This document shows, one piece after another, positions 2,941 to 28,383 of a stretch of 64,000 bases of DNA. The first letter of the stretch is position 1; every line of letters starts with the position of its first letter. This stretch comes from Acidobacteriota bacterium (GTDB taxonomy: Bacteria; Acidobacteriota; Vicinamibacteria; Marinacidobacterales; Marinacidobacteraceae). Below the pieces are notes generated by a model. It made no database searches and had not been told where the DNA came from. It saw nothing but the letters and a program-made list of their open reading frames with translations. The stretch spans positions 58,872 through 122,871 of the forward strand of contig JAJEFG010000039.1 in assembly GCA_022820545.1 (NCBI GenBank). Direction: 5' to 3'. The translations under genes and the position numbers were made by a program.

Positions 2941-3369
2941 GTGTCCGAGCCGCTGACCCTCGACCAGGCCGCGGTGCTGGAGGTGCTGCCGCACCGCGAA
3001 CCGTTCCTCTTCGTGCACGGCGTCTCGGACCTCGTGCCGGGACAGCGCGCCCGGGGGTTCGTCACCGTTCCGGCGAACCACCCGTACACCTTCGGCCAGC
3101 CGCACGTCCCGGCGGGGCTCGTCATCGAGGCGATGGCGCAGCTCGGCGGCATCGCGGTGCTCTACGAGCGGCGCGACGAGGACATCGTGGCGCTCTTCCG
3201 CTCGGTGGCGGATTTCACGATGGAGCGGACGGTGGACTTCGGCGAGCGCATCGATCTCTTCGCCGAGGTCGGGCGCATCCGGGGCCCGTTCGCCGAGGTG
3301 GCGACATCGGCGAGCGCCGGTGGAGCGCCGGTCGCATCCGCGACCCTCGCCTTCGCGCTGCCGCGATAA
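2941..3369 (+). CDS. FabZ-like 3-hydroxyacyl-ACP dehydratase family (hotdog) protein
   Basis: LPHREPFLFVHGVSDLVPG...VPAGLVIEAMAQLGG hotdog pattern; GTG start. Confidence 0.75.
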   Translation: MSEPLTLDQAAVLEVLPHREPFLFVHGVSDLVPGQRARGFVTVPANHPYTFGQPHVPAGLVIEAMAQLGGIAVLYERRDEDIVALFRSVADFTMERTVDFGERIDLFAEVGRIRGPFAEVATSASAGGAPVASATLAFALPR

Positions 3370-3788
3370 CGAGCGGCGGGCGGCGCGCTCCCGGGTGCGC
3401 GCCGGCGCCCGAACCGGGAGGCCGAAGGAAGGGCGGACCGGCTGTAGGTGGACCCGCCGCTGCGACAGAGAGTTCCTCTCTATTGGCTCACTGTTCGCCG
3501 AATCCGGCCGCTGCCGGCCTGACACGGGACAAGGGGCATGGAACCACTCCTCTCCATTCCCGGATAATCGCTCAGTGATCACACTTGGCCGCCGACAATG
3601 GATCACGCGCGACTCCTGTTGACAGAATACAAACCATGAGGCAGACCTGATCGACCGTCCGCTGCGGCGGTTGTTTCCAGTTGACTGGCGCCGCGAAACG
3701 CAGGTCGCCTTTCTTTTGCTGTCCACGGATCGTGAGAGTGATTCAAACGTTCCGGCGATCCGCGCGATCCCTTGATGGGGGAGAACAC

Positions 3789-6176
3789 ATGACCATATTC
3801 AGCGACACTCGAAGCCTGATGGCCGCCGGTCGGGCGCTCTTTCCGGCAGTCCTTGCCGCGGGATTCGCCCTGTTCGCGAGCGGCTGCGGCGGCGATTCGT
3901 CCGGTGCTCCGTCCGCGGTGTCCCCCGCGACTCCGGCACCCGCACGGCCGGCCACGATCCCCGAGCCCGGCACCGTGACCCACCTCGTGCCGCTGTTTCC
4001 GGAGAGCTCCAGCGGTTCCGGAACGGAGGGATTCGTCCGCATCGTCAACTACTCGGAGGAGCCCGGCGCAGTGCGCATCACGGCCTTCGACGGAAGCGGC
4101 CGCGCGTACGGGCCGGTCGGGCTCGCGATGGAGGCGGGCCAGACGATCCAACTGGCGCCGGAGGACCTGGCGCAGGGCAACTCCGCCATCGGCGTGTCCG
4201 GCGCCACCGGCTCCGGCTGGGGTGACGGCCGGCTGGAGCTGTCGAGCGACCTGGACCTCATGGTGCTGTCGTACATCCGTCATCCGGACGGGTTCTTGAC
4301 CGCGATGCACGACTCCGTACCGAGGGAAGGAAACCGCTACCACGTGCGGACCTTCCATCCGGGCAGCGGGTCGAACGGGGCGAGCCGGCTGCGGCTGATC
4401 CATACCGGCGAGAATCCGGCGACGGTCCGGATCCGGGGCATCGACGACCGGGGCGACTCCAGCGGTCAGGTCACGGTTTCCGTGCCGGCGGGCGCGACGC
4501 GGGAGTTCACCGCCGCCGAACTGGAGTCCGGAGCCGGCATGACCGGCGCCCTCGGCGCCGGCGCCGGGAGGTGGCGCCTCGTCCTCGAATCCGAGGACCA
4601 TCTGGTCGTATTGAACCTGTTGGAGAACCGGACAGGGCGCCTGGCGAATCTCTCCACCGCCCCGCGCCCCGGGCGAACCGGGGCGTGGACCGTCCCGCTC
4701 TTCCCCGGAGCATCGGATCCGGCGGGAAGGCGGGGGCTACTGCGGATCGTCAACCACTCCACCCGCGGCGGCGCGGTACGTGTGGCCGCCTTCGACGACA
4801 ACGGGCGGCGCCATCGGCCGTTCACCACACAGGTCGGGGCGGGACAAACCGTTCACCTCGACTCGGACGACCTCGAGGCAGAGCTGTCCAGCGGAGCCGG
4901 CGCGGGCAGCCGGCGGCTGGTGGCGAGCAGCGATCTGGACATCGAGGTGCTGTCCTACATCGAGCATTCGGACGGCTTTCTCACGGCGACGCACGACGTC
5001 GCGCCCCTGGGCGGATATCGGGTGGCGACCTTCGCGGCCGGAGGCCGGTTGCGGCTGGTCAACGCCGGGGCAACGGCGGCGCGCGTCACGGTGACGGCGG
5101 TTGACGACCGGGGCTCGTCTTCGGCAGGCGCCTTCGAGGTGACCGTTCCGGCGGCCGCGACGCGGGAGTTCAGGGCGGCGGAGATGGGGTTCGGCGGGAC
5201 GTCCGGCAACCGGCGTCTCGTCATCGACTCCGAAGCGTGGGTGGAGGCGATGAGCCTGCTGGAGGGCCCGGCGGGGCACCTGGCGAACCTGTCCACGGAG
5301 CCGCGGCGGGATCCGATCCCGGTGGAGGAGTTCCCCGTGGCCGCGACGAAGGGCAACCCCGCGGGCGTCCCCGTTTCGGTTCTGGACGCCGAGTTCGGTC
5401 CCGACACGCACGGACAGCGCATCACCGACACCTTTTTCGACCACACGCGTCACGCGGCGCTCGCGCAAGTCGGAGAGTGGGGCCAATACGCATTGAATGG
5501 TTCGGAACTTGTCGCCAATGCTTACGGCTCCGTCCTACACGCGCTGACCCGTGGCGGAGGCATCTTCTGGACCGCCACGGATTCATCCCCGGGGTACAAC
5601 CGCCGCTGGACAGATCCGTGGTTCGTGAAGCACGGTCGGCCGTTCAGGCGAGACATGCGGGAGTTCGCCAACTGGCGGCGCGACCGGGACGTGCTCTTCG
5701 TCAGCAGCATGGAGAACACGACCGTCCGACAGACGGAGGACGGGTACGTCCCCGCCTATTGCGACGACTTCGAGGTGCGCGAAGACCTGGACCACCTGTG
5801 GATCCCGCTGTGCGGCGAGTTCGACGACTACGTCGCCCATTCCGGCGTCGGGATCGACACCATCCTCTTTGCCGGCGCCCTCGATCCGCGGTTTGGCAAT
5901 GCCTCCGGGGCCATTCGCGCCGACGGCGTCTTCGCGCCGCACGCGATCTACGTCGAAGCCAGGAACACTTCGCACGCGACGGCGGTGCTCGCCGCCTATG
6001 CGGTGAATCTGTCGTTCGCCAACCCCTCCTGGAGCGCGGCGCGGCTGAAGCGCGAGCTCATGGCGCTGGCTCGCGAGGAAACCGTCGACTACGACGAAGG
6101 GAGATCCAACGAGAGAGGCACAATCGTGCTGGACCGTCGAACGGTCAGGATCATCCGCCCCGGATGGGCGCCCTGA
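3789..6176 (+). CDS. Putative lipoprotein with two ~240 aa internal repeats and a C-terminal divergent subtilisin (S8)-like region
   Basis: Signal plus lipobox FASGC; repeated blocks VPLFP..RIVN(Y/H)S..VLSYI.H.DGFLTA.HD..NLST.PR; C-term VLDAEF, THGQRI, NTSHATAVLAAY reminiscent of the S8 Asp/His/Ser motifs. Confidence 0.6.
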   Translation: MTIFSDTRSLMAAGRALFPAVLAAGFALFASGCGGDSSGAPSAVSPATPAPARPATIPEPGTVTHLVPLFPESSSGSGTEGFVRIVNYSEEPGAVRITAFDGSGRAYGPVGLAMEAGQTIQLAPEDLAQGNSAIGVSGATGSGWGDGRLELSSDLDLMVLSYIRHPDGFLTAMHDSVPREGNRYHVRTFHPGSGSNGASRLRLIHTGENPATVRIRGIDDRGDSSGQVTVSVPAGATREFTAAELESGAGMTGALGAGAGRWRLVLESEDHLVVLNLLENRTGRLANLSTAPRPGRTGAWTVPLFPGASDPAGRRGLLRIVNHSTRGGAVRVAAFDDNGRRHRPFTTQVGAGQTVHLDSDDLEAELSSGAGAGSRRLVASSDLDIEVLSYIEHSDGFLTATHDVAPLGGYRVATFAAGGRLRLVNAGATAARVTVTAVDDRGSSSAGAFEVTVPAAATREFRAAEMGFGGTSGNRRLVIDSEAWVEAMSLLEGPAGHLANLSTEPRRDPIPVEEFPVAATKGNPAGVPVSVLDAEFGPDTHGQRITDTFFDHTRHAALAQVGEWGQYALNGSELVANAYGSVLHALTRGGGIFWTATDSSPGYNRRWTDPWFVKHGRPFRRDMREFANWRRDRDVLFVSSMENTTVRQTEDGYVPAYCDDFEVREDLDHLWIPLCGEFDDYVAHSGVGIDTILFAGALDPRFGNASGAIRADGVFAPHAIYVEARNTSHATAVLAAYAVNLSFANPSWSAARLKRELMALAREETVDYDEGRSNERGTIVLDRRTVRIIRPGWAP

Positions 6177-6198
6177 AGCGCGTTTTCCTGGATCCACC

Positions 6199-6474
6199 GT
6201 GCCCGTCATCGAGGCGATGGCCCAGCTCGGCGGCATCGCGGTGCTCTACGAGCGGCGCGACGAGGACATCGTGGCGCTCTTCCGCTCGGTCGCCGATTTC
6301 ACGATGGAACGGACGGTGGACTTCGGGCAGCGCATCGATCTCTTCGCCGAGGTCGGACGCATCCGGGGACCATTCGCCGAGGTGAAGACGTCAGCGAGCG
6401 CCGGCGGCGAGCCGGTCGCTTCCGCCACCCTCGCCTACGCGCTGCCCGGAGGGCCGGCGGGCGCCGCCGGGTAA
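6199..6474 (+). pseudogene. Truncated second copy of the fabZ-like gene (C-terminal two thirds)
   Basis: About 90% identical by eye to 3121-3369; lacks the N-terminal part. Confidence 0.85.
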
Positions 6475-6489
6475 CGCCCGGAAACGACG

Positions 6490-7245
6490 ATGGAGCTGGA
6501 GTTCGTTCCGTTGCTCCGCGTGCAACGGCAACTGCACGAGCAGCCGCGCGGCGGGGAGCGTTTCCGGAGCTATCTGCGTACGATGATCGATGACCGGACC
6601 GGAGATCTGGAGCTACCGCTCGTGGCCATGAATCCCATGGGCGGAGATCACGTTCCGGCCCTGCTCGACCGGCTGCTCGCCGTCGATGCAGAGGGGGCCG
6701 GAGCGGCGGCGACGGCGGCCGCCGCCACCCATTCGGCGACGCGCGGCGTGCGCGGCCGGTTCCGGGTCGCGCTGGTCCTCGCGGACGATGCGCACGGGGG
6801 CTGGACCAACCGCTATCAGAGTGAGTTCGACCACTACTTCGAGGGCGACGCGCTCTACCGGCGCGGCTGGATCACGGGCATCCTCTGGACGAGCGAGGCG
6901 CCGACGGCGGAGGCGGCGCGGCGCGCCACGGCGAACGCAATCCACCGCGTGGCCCACATCCGCCGCTTCGGTCCGGCGCGCACCCTGCGTGCGATGCTGG
7001 CCCAGGAGGGCGCCGTGATGGCGGCGGCGGATTGCCGCGAGCCGTCGCTGAGCCCCGACGACCTTGCCTATACGCGGGAGGCGATGGCGCCTTACTTCGG
7101 GGCAGAGGACCGTCCGACGGCGATTGCCTGTCTCTACGGCGACGAAGCGGCGCGCACGCTCGGCTATCCGCCGCTGGGCTTCAGTCCACGGGCCGGTTTC
7201 GCGCTTGCCCTGGACATGGCTCGACGGGGCGCCGGGCCGAGATGA
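6490..7245 (+). CDS. Hypothetical protein
   Basis: Intact 251 aa ORF with ATG; no family recognised. Confidence 0.6.
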   Translation: MELEFVPLLRVQRQLHEQPRGGERFRSYLRTMIDDRTGDLELPLVAMNPMGGDHVPALLDRLLAVDAEGAGAAATAAAATHSATRGVRGRFRVALVLADDAHGGWTNRYQSEFDHYFEGDALYRRGWITGILWTSEAPTAEAARRATANAIHRVAHIRRFGPARTLRAMLAQEGAVMAAADCREPSLSPDDLAYTREAMAPYFGAEDRPTAIACLYGDEAARTLGYPPLGFSPRAGFALALDMARRGAGPR

Positions 7246-7270
7246 CCGGCGGACGCTGACTTCGGGGGGC

Positions 7271-7326
7271 GCCCGCGGAGAGACGGTCGCCGGTGCGACC
7301 CTCGCCTACGCGCTGCCGCGGGAGAA
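7271..7326 (+). repeat. Third copy of the fabZ-like 3' terminus (remnant)
   Basis: GGTCGCCGGTGCGACCCTCGCCTACGCGCTGCCGCG matches the ends at 3316-3366 and 6400-6450; encodes GETVAGATLAYALPR. Confidence 0.75.
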
Positions 7327-7426
7327 GCGGGCAATCTCTGGCTCTCTCCCATCAAAGTACTGTTGTATATCATTCGTGATGTTCTGCGGGCGAAATCGCC
7401 TGATAAATAGTCAGAATCGATGTTTT

Positions 7427-7777
7427 ATGGAGACTCCCCCTCAACCATCCGATGACGCAGCCCTGCAAGCGCTTGGACGCCGTCTTGCGCGCCATCGGCT
7501 GAACCGGAACCTCACCCAGGCCGAGGTGGCCGCGGAGGCAGGCGTCTCCACGCTGACCGTGCAGCGCATCGAGCAGGGGCGTTCCTCGCAGGCCACGAAC
7601 CTCATCCGGATCCTGAGAGCGCTCGGGCTGCTGGACAACCTCGACTCCCTCGTTCCCGAACCGGCGATCAGCCCGATCCAGCAGGCCCGCATGCGCGGCC
7701 GGATCCGGCAGCGCGCCTCTTCCCGGTCCGGCAAGCCGGAGCCGCCGGCCGAATGGTCGTGGGGTGACGAGCCGTGA
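7427..7777 (+). CDS. hipB: HipB-like XRE-family antitoxin
   Basis: HTH_3: LARHRLNRNLTQAEVAAEAGVSTLTVQRIEQGRSS; overlaps the hipA-like gene. Confidence 0.85.
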   Translation: METPPQPSDDAALQALGRRLARHRLNRNLTQAEVAAEAGVSTLTVQRIEQGRSSQATNLIRILRALGLLDNLDSLVPEPAISPIQQARMRGRIRQRASSRSGKPEPPAEWSWGDEP

Positions 7778-9075
7778 CCGTGGCCACGGTCCGGCTGTGG
7801 GGAAGAACGATCGGGGCCGTAAGCTGGGACGACGACCGCGAAACGGCCTTTTTCGAGTACGACCCGGCCTTCGTTTCCGGCGGCCCGCAGGTTGCGCCGC
7901 TCACCATGCGGCTGTCCAGCCAGATCCACTCGTTTCCGGCGTTGTCGCGGCAGACCTTCCACGGCTTGCCGGGCCTTCTCGCGGACTCGCTCCCCGACCG
8001 CTTCGGCAATGCGCTCATCGACGCGTGGCTCGCCAGGCAGGGGCGCGACCCAAGCGAATTCAACGCCGTCGAACGCCTCTGCACCATCGGACGGCGCGGC
8101 ATGGGCGCGCTCGAGTTCCTCCCCGCCCAGGGTCCGGCGCACCGGTCGGCGCGCCTCGACGTCGCAGCGCTCGTCGAACTCGCCAGCGAAATCCTCACGG
8201 GCCGCAGGGCCCTCGAAGGCTCCCTGACGCCGGCCGGCCGGGAGCGGGCCATGCAGGACATCCTGCGCGTCGGCACCTCGGCGGGCGGCGCCCGGGCGAA
8301 AGCCGTCATCGCCTGGAATCCCGAGACCAAAGAGGTTCGCTCGGGGCAGATCAAGGCCGGCGACGGCTTTTCCCACTGGCTGCTCAAGTTCGACGGCGTG
8401 GCCGGCAACCGGGACCGGGAACTGGAAGATCCCAAAGGTTACGGGCTGATCGAATATGCGTACCACGCCATGGCCCGGGCGGCCGGCATCCGGATGACCG
8501 AATGCCGGATCCTGCACGAGACCGGCCGACATCACTTCATGACCAGGCGTTTCGATCGCACGGACACGGGCGAGAAGATCCACATGCAGTCCCTCGGGGC
8601 TCTGGCCCACTACGACTTCAACCAACCGGGCGCGGTTTCGTACGAACAGGCCCTGCGCGTCATCGACCGACTCGGGCTGGGCAAGGACGCGGCGGAAGAG
8701 CAGTTCCGGCGCATGGCCTTCAACGTCGTCGCCCGCAATCAGGACGATCACGTCAAGAACATCGCCTTCCTGATGGATCGCTCGGGCCGCTGGCGGCTCT
8801 CTCCCGCGTTCGACGTCACCTACAGCTACAACCCGCAGGGCCGCTGGACCGGCGCGCACCAGATGACCCTGAACGGCAAGCGCGACGGTTTCGAGGTCGC
8901 CGACTTCGTGGCCTGCGCCAGGAATGCCAGCCTGAAGCGCGGCCGGGCCGCCGCGATCCTGCGCGATGTCCAGGAAGCCGTGTCACGCTGGCCCGAGTTC
9001 GCGGAAGCAGCGGGAGTGCCGGCGCATTCGGCGCGCAGGATCGGCGCCGTCCATCGTACGGACCTTCTTCCGTAG
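7774..9075 (+). CDS. hipA: HipA-like serine/threonine kinase toxin
   Basis: GTSAGGARAKAV and NQDDHVKNIAFLMD HipA kinase motifs; GTG start overlapping hipB stop. Confidence 0.9.
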   Translation: MTVATVRLWGRTIGAVSWDDDRETAFFEYDPAFVSGGPQVAPLTMRLSSQIHSFPALSRQTFHGLPGLLADSLPDRFGNALIDAWLARQGRDPSEFNAVERLCTIGRRGMGALEFLPAQGPAHRSARLDVAALVELASEILTGRRALEGSLTPAGRERAMQDILRVGTSAGGARAKAVIAWNPETKEVRSGQIKAGDGFSHWLLKFDGVAGNRDRELEDPKGYGLIEYAYHAMARAAGIRMTECRILHETGRHHFMTRRFDRTDTGEKIHMQSLGALAHYDFNQPGAVSYEQALRVIDRLGLGKDAAEEQFRRMAFNVVARNQDDHVKNIAFLMDRSGRWRLSPAFDVTYSYNPQGRWTGAHQMTLNGKRDGFEVADFVACARNASLKRGRAAAILRDVQEAVSRWPEFAEAAGVPAHSARRIGAVHRTDLLP

Positions 9076-9095
9076 CGGTCGTCCGGACGGCGGAC

Positions 9096-9158
9096 TTCGG
9101 CGGCGAGCCGGTCGCCTCCGCCCTCGCCTGCGCGCTGCCTCAGAGCCGCCGGAGGTAG
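9096..9158 (+). repeat. Fourth copy of the fabZ-like 3' terminus (remnant)
   Basis: TTCGGCGGCGAGCCGGTCGCCTCCGCCCTCGCCTGCGCGCTGCCT aligns to 6400-6448 with a 3 bp gap; encodes GGEPVASALACALP. Confidence 0.75.
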
Positions 9159-9469
9159 AGAAAGGCCGCCAGGACCGCCATGGCCTGTGGAACCAGGGTT
9201 CCGCCGATCGTCCACGCCATGATCCGGTCCGGCGGCCATTCCGGAACGATCCGCCAGAGCTCCAGGTTGAAACAGATGGACAGGACGGCCGCAGCGCCCG
9301 TGAACCACCCTGCCGCCCGATTCGCCGAATACCACACCTCCGGAGAGGAAAGTGTCTTGCGCGTCCTGAAGCCGTAGATGTTGTTGGGGCCGACCTTGCC
9401 CAGAATCATCGGCAGGGATACCACCAGGATCACTCCTGGAACGACGAGGCCGGCGAGGTGTTTCTCCAT
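9140..9469 (-). CDS. SdpI-family membrane protein
   Basis: GPNNIYGFRTRKTLSSPEVWYSANRAAG motif, TM helices. Confidence 0.75.
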   Translation of the reverse strand: MEKHLAGLVVPGVILVVSLPMILGKVGPNNIYGFRTRKTLSSPEVWYSANRAAGWFTGAAAVLSICFNLELWRIVPEWPPDRIMAWTIGGTLVPQAMAVLAAFLYLRRL

Positions 9470-9479
9470 TGCTCCAGCC

Positions 9480-10130
9480 TCAGCCTCCACCGGGCGCGCC
9501 CGCAGCCAGCCCAAGCATCCGGACGAGCACGAACTTCGTCGCCAACTCTCCCACGATGACCGCCCCGACGAAGATCAACACCGCGCGGGCCCCCCGCTGG
9601 TTCAGGGAAACGGCGAACGCCTTCCACATGAGCCAGATCATCCAGCACAGGCACGCGCCGCCAAACAGTCCCGCGGCGAGGGTCGCCGCCCCCGGCGTCG
9701 GGAGGCGGCCCTCGGCCACGGCGGCGACGTGTTCCCGGCTCGCTTCGCGAACCGGCGCCGGCAGGGACGAGAGGGCGGCGAGCAGGTACGGAACCCGCGC
9801 CAGCGCCTGCGTGCCGGCGACGTCCACGACACGGACGGTCCGCGGCGCGACGAGGAACGACGCCAGGACCAGGAGCACCGAAAACACGGACCAATTCACG
9901 AACCCTTCGACCACGGGGACCCACAGCGACACGTCGTGCCCCGGGTGGAAGTCGAGCAGGCCGTCGAAGTGCACACCCGCCGCTGCCGCCACCAGTCCGC
10001 TCGCAACGATCCCGGTCAATCCGATCGCGAGCGCCGACTCCCCGCCGATGCGGACGAATGGATTGAACAACCACCGGGCCAGGGTCATTTCTCGCGGGAC
10101 TCCCGCACTACTCGTCGTTTCCTGCTGCAT
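9480..10130 (-). CDS. Multi-pass membrane protein, possibly Yip1-like
   Basis: Five or so hydrophobic segments; weak family recognition. Confidence 0.5.
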   Translation of the reverse strand: MQQETTSSAGVPREMTLARWLFNPFVRIGGESALAIGLTGIVASGLVAAAAGVHFDGLLDFHPGHDVSLWVPVVEGFVNWSVFSVLLVLASFLVAPRTVRVVDVAGTQALARVPYLLAALSSLPAPVREASREHVAAVAEGRLPTPGAATLAAGLFGGACLCWMIWLMWKAFAVSLNQRGARAVLIFVGAVIVGELATKFVLVRMLGLAAGAPGGG

Positions 10131-10212
10131 GGGCGGCACCTCCTGCGCCGTCGGCGGCAACATTGTGTCCGGCTCCGGTTCACGGGACGCCTCCGCGCAA
10201 TACGCTACCGGA

Positions 10213-10665
10213 ATGACTCGTGGTTATCGGATCTTCGCCATCGTCATCGTCGCCGTCGTCTGGTGCACGGCGCCCGCGGCCGGCCGCGTCTCGACGGCCC
10301 TCGGGCAGGAAGAGGCGCGGACCGAGCAGCCCGAGGAGTTTCGCCAGCGCCTCGAAGAGGCCCGCACCCGGCTCGACCTGACCGACGAGCAGGCCGAGCA
10401 GGTCGGACCCATCCTCCGGGAGGGACGCGAAGCCCGGCAGGAGGTCCTTCGGGAGTATGGGATTCATACCGGGGGCCGCTCGGGCGGCGCCAATCGCCTC
10501 GGGTTCCGTCAGTTGCGCCGCCTCCAGCGGGAACTCAACGCGGTGCGGGAGCAGACGCTTGAAAACCTCGACGCGGTGCTGACCGACGAGCAACTCGAGG
10601 CCTACAAGGAAATCCAGGAGGAGAACCGGCAGGCGATGCGCGAACGCCTGCGCCAGCGCCGCTGA
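10213..10665 (+). CDS. Small secreted/periplasmic helical protein (Spy/CpxP-like)
   Basis: Signal peptide; RLDLTDEQAEQVGPIL and LDAVLTDEQLEAYKEIQ paired helical motifs. Confidence 0.55.
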   Translation: MTRGYRIFAIVIVAVVWCTAPAAGRVSTALGQEEARTEQPEEFRQRLEEARTRLDLTDEQAEQVGPILREGREARQEVLREYGIHTGGRSGGANRLGFRQLRRLQRELNAVREQTLENLDAVLTDEQLEAYKEIQEENRQAMRERLRQRR

Positions 10666-10667
10666 CG

Positions 10668-11456
10668 ATGGACGGGATCGGCCTCCGGCTGCTCGTCCTC
10701 CTGTTGGTGTTCGTGGCGGCCGAGTCCGCATGGTCGGCCTTGCGGAGGCGTCGCACCTACAACCTGAGGGACTCGCTGGCGAACGTCGCGATCTCGGTCG
10801 GGAACAACCTGCTCCGGCCGCTGTCGCTGGCCTGGAAGTACGTCGTCTTCTCGTGGGTGGAGCCGTTCCAGGTGTACCCGCTGCCTGATACGGGCTGGGC
10901 GTTCCTCGTGACGTTCCTGATCGCCGACTGCGCGTACTACTGGTACCACCGGCTCAGCCACGAGATCCCGATCCTGTGGACGATGCACCACACGCATCAT
11001 TCCAGCCCGTGGATGAACCTGACGACGGCGGTGCGGCTGAACTGGATCGCGAACTTCGTCAGCCCGTTCTTCTTCGCGCCGTTCATCCTGCTGGGCGTCT
11101 CGCCGGAGTGGATGACAGCGTCGCTGGCGCTGGGCCTGTTCTACCAGTTCCTGCTGCACACCGACGCGGTGCCGCCGCTGGGGTGGTTCGAAGGGAAGCT
11201 GCTCAACACGCCCTCGGCCCACCGGGTGCACCACGGGTCGAACCCGGTGTACATCGACCGCAACTACGCCGGTGCGCTCATCCTCTGGGACCGGCTGTTC
11301 GGGACCTACCAGTCTGAGGTCGAGCCGGTGCGCTACGGCGTGACGAGCGGGTTCGTGGGGCACAACCCGTTGGTGATCCAGCTGGCCCCGCTCTGGAAGT
11401 ACCTGCGGGGCGAGTGGCGGCGCGAGAAGGACGTCATGCGAGGGCGCCCATCCTGA
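10668..11456 (+). CDS. Sterol desaturase/fatty acid hydroxylase superfamily protein
   Basis: Histidine boxes YHRLSHE, HHTHHSS, AHRVHHG. Confidence 0.92.
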   Translation: MDGIGLRLLVLLLVFVAAESAWSALRRRRTYNLRDSLANVAISVGNNLLRPLSLAWKYVVFSWVEPFQVYPLPDTGWAFLVTFLIADCAYYWYHRLSHEIPILWTMHHTHHSSPWMNLTTAVRLNWIANFVSPFFFAPFILLGVSPEWMTASLALGLFYQFLLHTDAVPPLGWFEGKLLNTPSAHRVHHGSNPVYIDRNYAGALILWDRLFGTYQSEVEPVRYGVTSGFVGHNPLVIQLAPLWKYLRGEWRREKDVMRGRPS

Positions 11457-13264: not shown

Positions 13265-14659
13265 ATGATCCCGCCACACGTCTCTGACTGGGCGGCTGCC
13301 GGTGAGTCGGAGATCCAGGAGTTCAAGGAGACCACCGGTCAGCGCAGACTGGGTGCAAGGGCGGTGTGCGCGATGCTGAACCACCGGGGAGGTCGCGTCA
13401 TCTTCGGGGTGAAGAAGGGCGGCGCGATTGGCGGACAGCTCGTTGGAGAAGATACCGAGGCGGACGTCGCGGAAGAGATTCGAGCTATCGAACCGCCCGT
13501 TTACCCCAGCATCGAGCGCGCGGACGTCGGAGGCGGCCGGGCAGTTCTCGTGGTTACGGTACCGGCGGGCTCAAACCGCCCCTACAGCTATCGGGGTCGA
13601 GCTTGGCGCCGGGTGGGGACGACAAACGTTCGCCTTTCCCAGGAGGCGTACAACCGGATGCTCCTTGAGCGGGTGCATGGTGAGGTGCGGTGGGAGAACG
13701 AGGATGCTACGGACTGGACGATAGCCGACCTCGACTCCGAGCAGATTTCGCGAACCGTGACCGAAGCAGTCCGCCGGGGCCGCCTCGAAGACCCGGGCAC
13801 TCGAGATCCCGAGACGTTGTTGCGAGGACTCCAACTCTTACGTGGTAATGCCCTGTTGCGCGCGGCTGTCGTCCTTTTCGGGCGAAGAGAGCACTTGGGG
13901 CGAAGCTATCCGCAGTCTTTGCTCCGGCTTGCGAGGTTCCGGGGCACAACGCGCACGGAATTTCTCGACAACCGACAATTCCATGGAAACGCCTTTGAGG
14001 TTCTGGAAACGGCCCAGCGGTTCCTGTTGGAAAGCCTGCCGATCGCGGGCCGGATCAAACCTGGCCTGTTCGAGCGGGTGGACGACCCACTCTATCCACC
14101 TGAGGCGTTGCGGGAGGCGGTGGCGAATGCCATTTGTCACCGGGACTACTCGATGGGAGGCGGTTCAATAGGGATCGGGATTTACGACGATCGTCTCGAG
14201 ATCACTTCGACCGGGTCGCTGCATTTCGGTCTGACGCCGGCGATGCTGTTCGAGCCCCATGAATCGCGCCCGTGGAACCCTTTGATTGCGGGGGTCCTTT
14301 ATCGGCGCGGCATCATCGAGAACTGGGGCCGTGGCACGATCAAGATGGCCGAACTCACTGAGCAGGCGGGCCTTCCTCGGCCGGAAATCGAAGATTCCGG
14401 CGGCGCGGTAACGGTTCGGTTCTTGCCGGGACGGTATGTCCCTCCAATGCGTGTGGGGATGGACCTCACGGCCCGTCAACGGGAAATCCTCTCGATTCTT
14501 GGAGAGACCGCTGGCGGAGTCGCGTTACGCGACATCCTCCCGCGCGTGAGGAACGGGGCAACGACCCGACAGATTAGAGACGATCTCCAGGTGCTGCGGA
14601 CGGTTGAGTTGGCTGATCCCGTCGGCTGGGGACGCGGAGCGCGTTGGAGGCGACGGTAG
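13265..14659 (+). CDS. AlbA_2 (Schlafen-type) putative ATP-binding/transcriptional regulator
   Basis: ESEIQEFKETTG, CAMLNHRGGRVIFGVKKGG, NAICHRDYSMGGGSIGIGIYDDRLEITSTG. Confidence 0.9.
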   Translation: MIPPHVSDWAAAGESEIQEFKETTGQRRLGARAVCAMLNHRGGRVIFGVKKGGAIGGQLVGEDTEADVAEEIRAIEPPVYPSIERADVGGGRAVLVVTVPAGSNRPYSYRGRAWRRVGTTNVRLSQEAYNRMLLERVHGEVRWENEDATDWTIADLDSEQISRTVTEAVRRGRLEDPGTRDPETLLRGLQLLRGNALLRAAVVLFGRREHLGRSYPQSLLRLARFRGTTRTEFLDNRQFHGNAFEVLETAQRFLLESLPIAGRIKPGLFERVDDPLYPPEALREAVANAICHRDYSMGGGSIGIGIYDDRLEITSTGSLHFGLTPAMLFEPHESRPWNPLIAGVLYRRGIIENWGRGTIKMAELTEQAGLPRPEIEDSGGAVTVRFLPGRYVPPMRVGMDLTARQREILSILGETAGGVALRDILPRVRNGATTRQIRDDLQVLRTVELADPVGWGRGARWRRR

Positions 14660-14676
14660 TGGTTCGGCCCATTCGC

Positions 14677-14817
14677 GGCCCATTCGCGGCGCTTTCCGGC
14701 TCATTCACGGCGCTTTCCGGTCCTTTCGCGGCGCTTTCCGGCTCATTCACGGCGCTTTCCGGCCCTTTCGCGGCGCTTTCCGGCCCATTCGCGGCGCTTT
14801 CCGGCCCATTCGCGGGG
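14677..14817. repeat. 21-bp tandem repeat, six full units plus partial
   Basis: GGCCCATTCGCGGCGCTTTCC with small substitutions at 14677, 14698, 14719, 14740, 14761, 14782 and partial at 14803. Confidence 0.95.
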
Positions 14818-14821
14818 AGAA

Positions 14822-15240
14822 CTAACTAACACCGTCACCCGAAAGGTCGAAACACGTAAAGAGGCGACCCTCGAACCGGCGGCGCAACCGCTCGACGCGC
14901 CGCCGGTTCACCCCGAAGTCATAGATGCCGATCCGCGATGCGGAACGCACCTGGATCACCTTCTGCCGGCGGCAGAGCAGGAGTTCGAGGTCGTCCACGA
15001 ACCCGATCCGGGTGCGGCAGCGGGCGTGCAGGTAGCGGTCCGTAGCGGTAAGCACGCGCGTCCTCCGGGTGTTCGCCACCAGGTGCGTGACGCGGGCGAA
15101 GGCAGCGTCCGGATCCTCCGAGAACCCGATTGGTGCGATTCGGTGGCGGCGCGACCCGTCCTCGCGGCTGCACACACAGTTGAAGCGGGCCCTGCACGGC
15201 CGCAGGGAATCGCGCACGGGGGTCGCGGGGCGATCAGGCG
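14822..15240 (-). CDS. DUF1499 family protein (copy 1; start uncertain)
   Basis: NCVCSRED...DRYLHARCRTRIGFVDDLELLL..VIQVRSASRIGIYDFGVNRRRVERLRRRFEG. Confidence 0.7.
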
Positions 15241-15324
15241 CCGACTCCGGCCCGGCGACTCCCGGCGGCAACTGGTGAAGCAAAAGAGAGCGACCTCCCT
15301 GAATCAGTCGCCGCCGCTGATCGC

Positions 15325-15690
15325 TTACCCGCCCTCGAACCGGCGGCGCAGCGCCTCGACGCGGCGCCGGTTCGCGCCGAAGTCCGTGAAGAGCGAGATG
15401 TACGAGGCGCTGCGGACGTGGATCACCCCCTCCGCGGCACACAGCAGGAATTCGAGGTCGTCCACGAAGCCGAGCCGGGTCCGGCACCGGGCGTGGAGAT
15501 AGTCGTCCGCGGCGGCAACGATCGCGGTGCACGGCGCGCTCGCCACGAGCCGCTTCAGGCGGGTGAACGCGGCGTGCGGGTCTCCCGATGCGTCGAACGG
15601 CTCGACGCGATGGCGAGCGCGCGCATCGTCGCGGCTGGAGACGCAAGTCGGGAAGAAGGAGCAGGGCGAAAGCCGGCCTGACACGGAAAC
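15325..15690 (-). CDS. DUF1499 family protein (copy 2; start uncertain)
   Basis: TCVSSRDD...DDYLHARCRTRLGFVDDLEFLL..VIHVRSASYISLFTDFGANRRRVEALRRRFEGG. Confidence 0.7.
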   Translation of the reverse strand, partial: VSVSGRLSPCSFFPTCVSSRDDARARHRVEPFDASGDPHAAFTRLKRLVASAPCTAIVAAADDYLHARCRTRLGFVDDLEFLLCAAEGVIHVRSASYISLFTDFGANRRRVEALRRRFEGG

Positions 15691-15701: not shown

Positions 15702-16892
15702 CTACGCGGCGCGCAGGCACGACTCCAGCGCGTCGGCGGCGCGGTGAACGTCCTGGGCCCTCGTCCAGCCGAGGTGGCCGAGCCGCAGGATCTTCCCCTG
15801 AAGCTGACCAAGTCCGCCCGCCAGCACGATTCCGTGACGCTGCTGGAGGGTACGCGTCAGTTCCGGCCAGGCGACTCCCGAGGGCAGCCAGGCGGCGGTG
15901 ACCGTGTTGCTGGCGCTTTCCTCGTCCGCGACCAGGCGCAGTCCCATCGCCTCGAGTCGGCTCCGGGCCGCCGCCGCGGCCTCCGCGTGCCGGCGGAAGA
16001 CCGCATCCCGCCCCTCGCGGAGCATGAGCCGAAGGCCGGCCTCCATCGCGAACAGGACGGGGACGGCGGGGGTGAAGGGCATGGAGCCGCGCGCGAGCGC
16101 GTCGCGGTAGCGCGAGAAGCTCCAGTAGTAGCGGGGGAGGCGGGCGCTGCGCTCGGCCGCCGCGGCGCGTTCCGAAATCCAGACCATCGCCATTCCGGGC
16201 GGCAGGCCCCACGCCTTCTGGGAGGCCGTGAACACGGCGTCGCAGGAGTCCACCGCCAGCGGCATCCCGCCGAGGCTGGACACCGCGTCCACCAGAACCA
16301 GGGCGTCGCTCTCCTCGCGGACGACCCGGACCAGTTCGGGCAGCGGATGCAGGACGCCCGTCGAAGTCTCGGAGTGCGTGAGGAGCACCGCCCGCGTCCC
16401 GGGGCCCGTCCGGAGGGCTACCCGGAGCCGCTCGGGAGCGACCGCCCTGCCCCAGGGCGTGTCGAGGCTCCGCGTCTCGAGCCCGAACGCCTCCGCCACC
16501 CCGAGGAAGCGCTCGGCGAACTGGCCCCCGCCGATCCCGAGCACCGGGTCGCCCGGTGACAGCAGGTTGGCGAGCGTCGCCTCCATGGCGCCCGTCCCCG
16601 ACGCGGTGAGCAGGACGGGCTGCCGCTCGGTGCCGAGGTAGGCGCAAAAACCCTCGGCGATCCGGCCGAGCAGCGCGCGGGCCTCGGGCCCCCGGTAGGA
16701 GATCAGCGGTTGCGCCATCGCCGCCGCGACTTCGGGGTGGAGCGGCGTGGGGCCGGGGGTGTGGAGACCCGGGGGGATGGGAGCGCCACCGGGAGATACG
16801 CCATCCGGGCGCGTGGCGTTCTGCGTGCCGCCCGCCTGCGGCGGGCTGTGCCGGTCTGAAGACCGGCGCTCCCACCGGCGCTCCCTGGTCAC
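15702..16892 (-). CDS. Class V aminotransferase (alanine-glyoxylate/serine-pyruvate type)
   Basis: HTPGPTPLHPEVAAAMAQPLISYRG, GTGAMEATLANLLSPGD, ASQKAWGLPPGMAMVWIS; start codon uncertain. Confidence 0.88.
   Translation of the reverse strand: MTRERRWERRSSDRHSPPQAGGTQNATRPDGVSPGGAPIPPGLHTPGPTPLHPEVAAAMAQPLISYRGPEARALLGRIAEGFCAYLGTERQPVLLTASGTGAMEATLANLLSPGDPVLGIGGGQFAERFLGVAEAFGLETRSLDTPWGRAVAPERLRVALRTGPGTRAVLLTHSETSTGVLHPLPELVRVVREESDALVLVDAVSSLGGMPLAVDSCDAVFTASQKAWGLPPGMAMVWISERAAAAERSARLPRYYWSFSRYRDALARGSMPFTPAVPVLFAMEAGLRLMLREGRDAVFRRHAEAAAAARSRLEAMGLRLVADEESASNTVTAAWLPSGVAWPELTRTLQQRHGIVLAGGLGQLQGKILRLGHLGWTRAQDVHRAADALESCLRAA
16848..16874. repeat. REP-like palindrome (GTGCCGGTCTGAAGACCGGCGCTCCCA variant)
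   Basis: Identical to 28349-28375. Confidence 0.7.
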
Positions 16893-27525: not shown

Positions 27526-28383
27526 TCAGTTGACCGCGATCAGTTCGACCTCGAAGAGCAGGGTCGCGTAAGGAGGGATCCGGGGTTGCCGGCCGGCCGC
27601 TCCGTAGGCGAGTTCATGGGGAATCACCAGGCGCCGGCGTCCTCCGACACGCATCCCCACGACCCCCAGATCCCAGCCCACGATGACCGCGCCCACTCCG
27701 AGCGTGAACTCGAAGGGGTCCTCCGCGGTGGTGGAATCGAAGGTGTCGCCCCTGTTGTCGGGCGCCAGCAGGTCGTACACCCAGCCGTGGTAGGCCATCG
27801 AGAGGGAGTCCCCGTTCTCCGCCTCCTCCCCGGAGCCGACCTGAAGATCGATGGTTTCGAACGGCACCTCCGCCCCCGCCACCAGAGCCACCTCGAAGAC
27901 CAGGGTGGCGTTTCCGGGGACCAGGTTGTTCCCCTGGGCGCCGAAACCGAGATCGGGCGGCACGACGATCCGGCGTCTCCCTCCCACCCGCATTCCGGCC
28001 ACCCCCTGGTCGATGCCGGAGATGACCTGTCCCACCCCGAACCGGAACGAGTCGGGGTCCCCGGGCGGCACCGAAATGAACTCCCGTCCCTTGTTGTCGG
28101 CCGCGGCCTCGTCGTAGAGCCACCCGGTGTACGCGATCGCGAGCAGCCAGCCGTCCTCCACCTCGGGACCCTCCCCTTCCTCGAGATCGGTGAACCCGAA
28201 GGGCACGTCGAGCGGCGGGGCGGGTTCCGGCGGTTCCGGGGTCGTGGGAGAGGCCCCGTCACCGCCGCAACCGAGTCCGAAGGCGCCGGCGGCAAGCAGG
28301 AAAGCAGGCAGGAAGAACGGCCCGCATGTCGTCCGCCTCCGGCGTGCGGTGCCGGTCTGAAGACCGGCGCTCCCAGCCGCCAC
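27526..28383 (-). CDS. Two-domain FKBP-type peptidyl-prolyl isomerase lipoprotein (start uncertain)
   Basis: Two copies of VGQVISGIDQGVAGMRVGGRRRIVVPP / VGAVIVGWDLGVVGMRVGGRRRLVIPH; GTG start proposed. Confidence 0.85.
   Translation of the reverse strand: MAAGSAGLQTGTARRRRTTCGPFFLPAFLLAAGAFGLGCGGDGASPTTPEPPEPAPPLDVPFGFTDLEEGEGPEVEDGWLLAIAYTGWLYDEAAADNKGREFISVPPGDPDSFRFGVGQVISGIDQGVAGMRVGGRRRIVVPPDLGFGAQGNNLVPGNATLVFEVALVAGAEVPFETIDLQVGSGEEAENGDSLSMAYHGWVYDLLAPDNRGDTFDSTTAEDPFEFTLGVGAVIVGWDLGVVGMRVGGRRRLVIPHELAYGAAGRQPRIPPYATLLFEVELIAVN
28349..28375. repeat. REP-like palindrome, same as 16848-16874
   Basis: GTGCCGGTCTGAAGACCGGCGCTCCCA. Confidence 0.7.

Follow-up and report, generated by a model that had tools for sequence, protein, structure and literature searches.

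The 3' end of a fabZ-like gene in a genome from the Acidobacteriota recurs three more times downstream of the intact gene, and a lipoprotein block, an orphan reading frame, and a HipBA module each precede one of these displaced ends. We propose that the three modules were inserted one after another inside the coding end of the gene and that a different end was supplied each time. As to how this came about, we favor, with moderate confidence, one-sided homologous acquisition of DNA from congeners without a dedicated mobile element.

The window that we analyzed is a stretch of 64,000 nucleotides (positions 58872-122871 of contig C108, which is 123 kb long, in the 3.46 Mb bin G000). The closest relatives of G000 are metagenome bins labelled Acidobacteria, and our guess is that G000 and these relatives are sponge-associated. 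We compared the locus across eight genomes of the genus (G000-G007). Coordinates are positions in the window unless another contig is named, and "nt" refers to positions in the intact fabZ-like gene.

A row of displaced gene ends

The fabZ-like gene (2941..3369, nt 1-429) encodes a hot-dog dehydratase-like protein, ends in ...ALPR*, and has orthologs in all of the congeners. Two ABC transporter genes lie 5' of it in the window. (In G006, an insert of about 310 nt with a short dispersed repeat lies between the ABC transporter gene and the fabZ-like gene, at L039 2677-3000.) The protein matches PF07977 at 24.1 bits, just above the cut-off of 23. We call it FabZ-like rather than FabZ because it scores 58-68 bits against the curated NCBIfam FabZ models and does not reach their cut-offs (113-155). 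For brevity, we refer to the gene as fabZ.

The gene order in G000, G006 and G007 is fabZ, lipoprotein, c2, ORF251, c3, HipBA, c4, SdpI, where c2, c3, and c4 are the displaced fabZ ends. In the window, all of these lie on the forward strand except for the SdpI-like gene. Module 3 (3370..6196), which would be the youngest, contains a reading frame with internal repeats (3789-6176) that has a weak match to DUF5719; judging by eye from its N-terminus, it encodes a putative lipoprotein. Next comes c2 (6201..6446), which corresponds to nt 177-422 at 92% identity and whose frame continues to ...ALPGGPAGAAG* at 6474. Module 2 is an orphan reading frame of 251 amino acids (ORF251, 6490..7245). It belongs to no family that we could find: Pfam, NCBIfam, PADLOC, PHROGs, and PDB all gave no match, and its distant homologs are in two genomes of the class. 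It is followed by c3 (7250..7320), which ends in ALPRE and has lost its stop codon.

Module 1, the oldest, consists of a HipB-like HTH antitoxin gene (7427..7777; PF13560 and PF01381) and a HipA-like toxin kinase gene (7774..9075; PF07804 and PF13657), which overlap by 4 nt at 7774-7777. The HTH antitoxin adjoins a HipA kinase that has both HipA domains, and by family the module is predicted to be a toxin-antitoxin pair. After it comes c4 (9084..9139), which ends in ALPQ, and then the SdpI-like gene (9140..9514, reverse strand; PF13630), which is the right neighbor of fabZ in genomes that lack the modules.

The first-pass annotation had described a recurring gene end, and the alignments bear this out. 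Relative to fabZ, all three copies are in direct orientation, with 6201-6446 matching nt 177-422, 7258-7320 matching nt 363-425 (81% identity, E = 3e-11), and 9098-9139 matching nt 378-422 (82% identity, E = 2e-6). Its placement of c2 at 6199-6474 was right as to the copy but not as to the limits: the homology begins at about 6201, and the end at 6474 takes in the extension GGPAGAAG*. It had also allowed that the short tails might be chance similarity, which is not the case, as c3 and c4 score far above dinucleotide shuffles of their own intervals (z = 17 and z = 7.7, respectively), while the lipoprotein interval, as a control, shows no excess (z = 0.1). When we searched the entire G000 genome with the 67-nt tail of fabZ, as had been suggested, we found it in four places only, all at this locus; the other matches were weak and short (about 20-35 nt). 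The array is not an assembly artefact, because the metagenome-assembled genomes G006 and G007 share it, with four copies and identical cargo at 89-92% DNA identity.

Empty and intermediate states in the genus

Comparison with related genomes, another check that had been suggested, showed that states with no module, one module, and three modules all exist within the genus. G002, G004, and G005 have empty sites, in which fabZ abuts an SdpI-like gene on the opposite strand. (In G004, fabZ is split over two contigs with a 55-nt overlap, and SdpI abuts the part that includes the 3' end. We considered a second copy hidden at the contig ends inside fabZ, but searching the DNA of G004 and G001 revealed no further tail.) The G003 site has a single module: HipBA lies between fabZ and SdpI, and there is no displaced tail. 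Orthologs of the HipA protein are found at this site in G000, G003, G006, and G007, and elsewhere in the genus there are only distant matches (about 33%). Within the genus, ORF251 and the full-length lipoprotein are found only in G000, G006, and G007, and always at this site. None of the eight genomes has fabZ directly before the orphan reading frame, and none has the lipoprotein alone.

More broadly, the interval from fabZ to a PQQ-repeat gene is variable, with different genes 3' of fabZ in different congeners. The SdpI-like alleles are just 63-98% identical between congeners while the flanking genes are far less divergent, suggesting, from sequence comparison, either allele exchange or fast evolution. 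Furthermore, the SdpI of G007 is of another type than that of G000 and G006, although the same array precedes it. The divergence and the switch of type in G007 imply that the interval has been exchanged by recombination, or so it appears. Between SdpI and the PQQ-repeat gene, G000 and G006 have additional genes (9480-11456 in the window) that are absent from G007, G005, and G002; they encode a 227-amino-acid protein of unknown function, a protein with a weak LTXXQ match, and a fatty acid hydroxylase.

Such exchange could in principle have run in the other direction. If fabZ-HipBA-SdpI were the ancestral arrangement in G003-like strains, then the tails would be the leading edge of an incoming fabZ tail which, together with its downstream DNA, replaced the right side of the locus. 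We keep this rival in view because no displaced tail accompanies HipBA in G003 and because G001 shares the flank that follows fabZ in G003; the different SdpI types right after c4 (G007 versus G000 and G006) also fit. But it requires three independent joins, each just past the stop codon of a cargo gene and each with a fabZ tail, and the empty sites and the absence of the cargo elsewhere in the genus favor gain. We consider it rather unlikely.

Two displaced ends carry the signatures of other species

The strongest evidence for serial insertion is the way in which the copies end, and this evidence is independent of the mechanism. Beyond the ...ALP that all share, the intact gene ends in R* in G000, G006, and G007; in RE* in G003 and G001; in Q* in G004 and G005; and in RR* in G002. 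The copy beside SdpI (c4) has the Q ending, and its stop codon is kept in G007. The copy beside HipBA (c3) has an RE or QE ending and has lost its stop codon, and its flank past the old stop resembles the flank of the intact gene in G003. Thus, the endings of c3 and c4 match those of intact genes that lie beside the same neighbor in other species, which implies that c3 and c4 are former gene ends in their former contexts. The copy beside ORF251 (c2) ends in (G/R)GPAGAAG*, and by analogy it may likewise be a former end of fabZ. These signatures imply that the insertions occurred inside the coding end and that a different end was supplied each time. Along with the empty and one-module congeners, they support the original proposal that insertions entered the 3' end in series, each providing a substitute end.

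The signatures also speak to a simpler idea, that the end of fabZ was duplicated in tandem and that unrelated DNA was later inserted between the copies. The copies are all direct and in the same order, as expected from tandem duplication, but duplication within a single genome would not yield the neighbor and the ending of another species' intact gene, as seen for c3 and c4. We view this explanation as very improbable.

The copies also seem to differ in age. The shortest remnant (c4) belongs to HipBA, the module that also occurs by itself (in G003), so HipBA was probably inserted first. Just upstream of c4 in G000 there is a match to nt 286-304 (18 of 19 nucleotides identical; 0 of 2,000 shuffles scored as well), which implies that c4 was once longer. 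A possible upstream piece of c3 (nt 285-302) is weaker, as 1.1% of shuffles did as well. In G000, G006, and G007, the frame of c2 is still open, and the changes between G000 and G007 are mainly at third positions, which fits a recently displaced end; the c2 of G006 has more amino acid changes. The suggestion that the short copies are older and decayed thus agrees with what we see, namely HipBA by itself in G003 and a c4 that has lost internal sequence. We also considered whether c3 and c4 arose by a 68-bp deletion between direct repeats internal to fabZ. For c3 the match was not above chance, and c4 did not fit; a junction of nt 286-304 with nt 378-422 is the better description of c4.

A second scar at a TPR gene

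Our scan for further 3'-end copies took in 123 kb of the G000 genome and 319 kb of the G003 genome. It revealed one more convincing scar, at a TPR-protein gene in G003 (contig C26, 124607-125650; L139), where the end of the gene recurs 611 nt downstream. The other candidates that we looked at were dispersed palindromic repeats, repeats internal to proteins, or tandem repeats. In G005 (contig C12, 13809-14615; L135), a 249-nt copy of the TPR tail lies about 150 nt after the stop codon. Relative to a 135-amino-acid query, the copy begins at residue 92 in G003 and at residue 53 in G005. Neither scar contains cargo genes. The copy in G005 runs directly into about 3.3 kb of neighboring DNA that is common to six congeners at 90-96% identity, and the DNA right after the intact TPR gene of G005 resembles the G003 flank. 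The TPR gene end of G004 is slightly closer to the copy in G005 (92.7%) than to the intact end in G005 (90.4%), although this difference is small. We looked for the left crossover point at the G005 locus and saw only background divergence.

Two other kinds of repeats were noticed. Palindromic repeats with a GCCGGTCTGNAGACCGGCG core are dispersed in the genus (in the window at 16850-16868 and 28351-28369, and in L042, L043, L135, and others). One of these palindromes lies exactly at the joint of the TPR scar in G005, and a palindrome similar to them lies between fabZ and HipBA in G003. Within the window, we also asked whether two neighboring reading frames (14868-15645; 73% DNA identity over 317 nt), which we take to be DUF1499-like from their motif, represent a second scar, and concluded that they are paralogs in tandem. 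Also, short direct repeats of 46-67 nt, with spacings of 85 and 106 nt, occur at 14665-14815, after a gene for a Schlafen AlbA_2 / HATPase protein (13265-14659).

Attachment site or integrase

As happens with integrative elements, the target 3' end was regenerated and the native end was displaced, and the locus had been likened to an attachment site of such elements. If so, the fabZ 3' end would be the attachment site for elements that carry a replacement end and that are moved in trans by a tyrosine recombinase encoded elsewhere in the genome, giving a tandem array like those of composite islands. Three events at the same gene, with the same polarity and with the end restored every time, are what this would produce, and the G000 genome has 13 matches to the tyrosine recombinase family (PF00589). 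The two top-scoring ones are probably XerC/XerD-like, and there are 11 others. However, none of the 13 is on the 123 kb of C108, consistent with the earlier remark that no integrase was visible, and profile searches of the cargo proteins found no integrase among their families. The copies also appear to start at different points in fabZ: c2 at about nt 177, c4 no later than nt 286, and c3 possibly no later than nt 285, where c3 and c4 are too decayed to give an exact start. Nor is the fabZ tail found elsewhere in the genome, and similar scars with different starts and without cargo genes lie at the unrelated TPR gene. Scars at two unrelated genes, with different starts and in one case without cargo, are hard to fit to a site-specific recombinase, so the comparison to attachment sites is not supported, and we consider an integrase acting in trans to be unlikely.

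A one-sided route of gene gain

Under the one-sided acquisition that we favor, DNA from a relative, carrying the 3' end of fabZ and the relative's own downstream gene, would enter the cell and pair by homology within the resident fabZ. The far end of the incoming DNA would then be joined illegitimately inside the 3' coding end of the resident gene. Equivalently, end joining might circularize the fragment, which a single crossover would then integrate. Either way, the product would be an intact hybrid fabZ, new cargo, and then the former 3' end, displaced but with its previous neighbor still beside it. HipBA would have come first and the orphan reading frame and the lipoprotein later. If fabZ must stay whole, then only events that restore it would survive, while the displaced tails would decay by substitution and deletion. 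How the DNA recombined, which relatives donated it, where the joints lie, and which of the last two modules came first are our inferences.

At both fabZ and the TPR gene of G005 and G003, there is homology on one side and unrelated DNA on the other. Ku is present in seven of the eight genomes and ComEC in all eight, so that both the uptake of DNA and the joining of its ends are plausible, although ComEC, a common protein, proves nothing by itself. By eye, we did not establish clear microhomology at the joints, which are decayed and whose donors are missing. Neither sliding identity nor a tree of the tails (which had low support) gave clear discordance that would point to a foreign origin of the fabZ end now in place. 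As a counterpoint, all three cargo blocks end about 25 bp or less from a stop codon, which would suit a defined cassette too.

Homology-facilitated illegitimate recombination has been described in three competent species, Streptococcus pneumoniae, Acinetobacter baylyi, and Pseudomonas stutzeri, and the known one-sided events usually delete about as much DNA as they insert and involve 3-10 bp of microhomology (PMC3240628). The fabZ locus resembles these events in having homology on one side, an illegitimate join on the other, no mobility gene, and foreign DNA beside a conserved gene. In contrast to the usual deletion of recipient DNA, the gene end is duplicated here, and the same gene was used three times. 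We saw no deletion in the recipient of about the size of the insert, either at fabZ or at the TPR gene of G005, and the native neighbor was kept. Because the gene end is duplicated instead of deleted, this is at most a variant of the known reaction: fabZ may work in a similar way, but it is not a typical case and we do not count it as a member. Circularization followed by a single crossover is one fate of linear DNA in E. coli (PMC3240628), and the product of single-crossover integration of a circularized fragment (an intact gene, the insert, a partial copy of the gene, and the native flank) is like what we see. The fabZ case differs in being natural, serial, and between species, and its circular intermediate is hypothetical.

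Other systems share some of these features. The prophage e14 inserts in the 3' end of the icd gene of E. coli. As at fabZ, a coding 3' end is used, a replacement end is supplied, and the native end is displaced to the far side, but e14 encodes an integrase and uses a defined site, and we found neither at fabZ. The orphan or displaced tails of CdiA-CT and Rhs proteins are old gene ends that were pushed downstream by recombination and kept in a row. In those systems the novelty in function resides in the swapped ends, whereas at fabZ the end is nearly unchanged and the cargo is new. In the minimal mobile elements of Neisseria, varied genes lie between two conserved genes and are exchanged by homologous recombination in the flanks, and fabZ too has variable genes between conserved neighbors. 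To our knowledge, a row of gene-tail scars has not been described for these elements.

Implications

In this genus, one-sided insertion-duplication might be a general and ongoing way of adding genes at the 3' ends of conserved genes, aided by Ku-type end joining and perhaps by the dispersed palindromic repeats at joints, with the scars as a time-ordered record of the genes acquired. We regard this broader claim as possible but doubtful. A genome-wide search for short 3'-end copies downstream of intact genes could give the rate of one-sided gene addition. At the fabZ locus itself, the gene-tail scars make the order of gene gain readable, and the congeners provide the empty and intermediate states. 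Here, genes have accumulated naturally in a lineage that is uncultured, and no mobile-element gene is visible.
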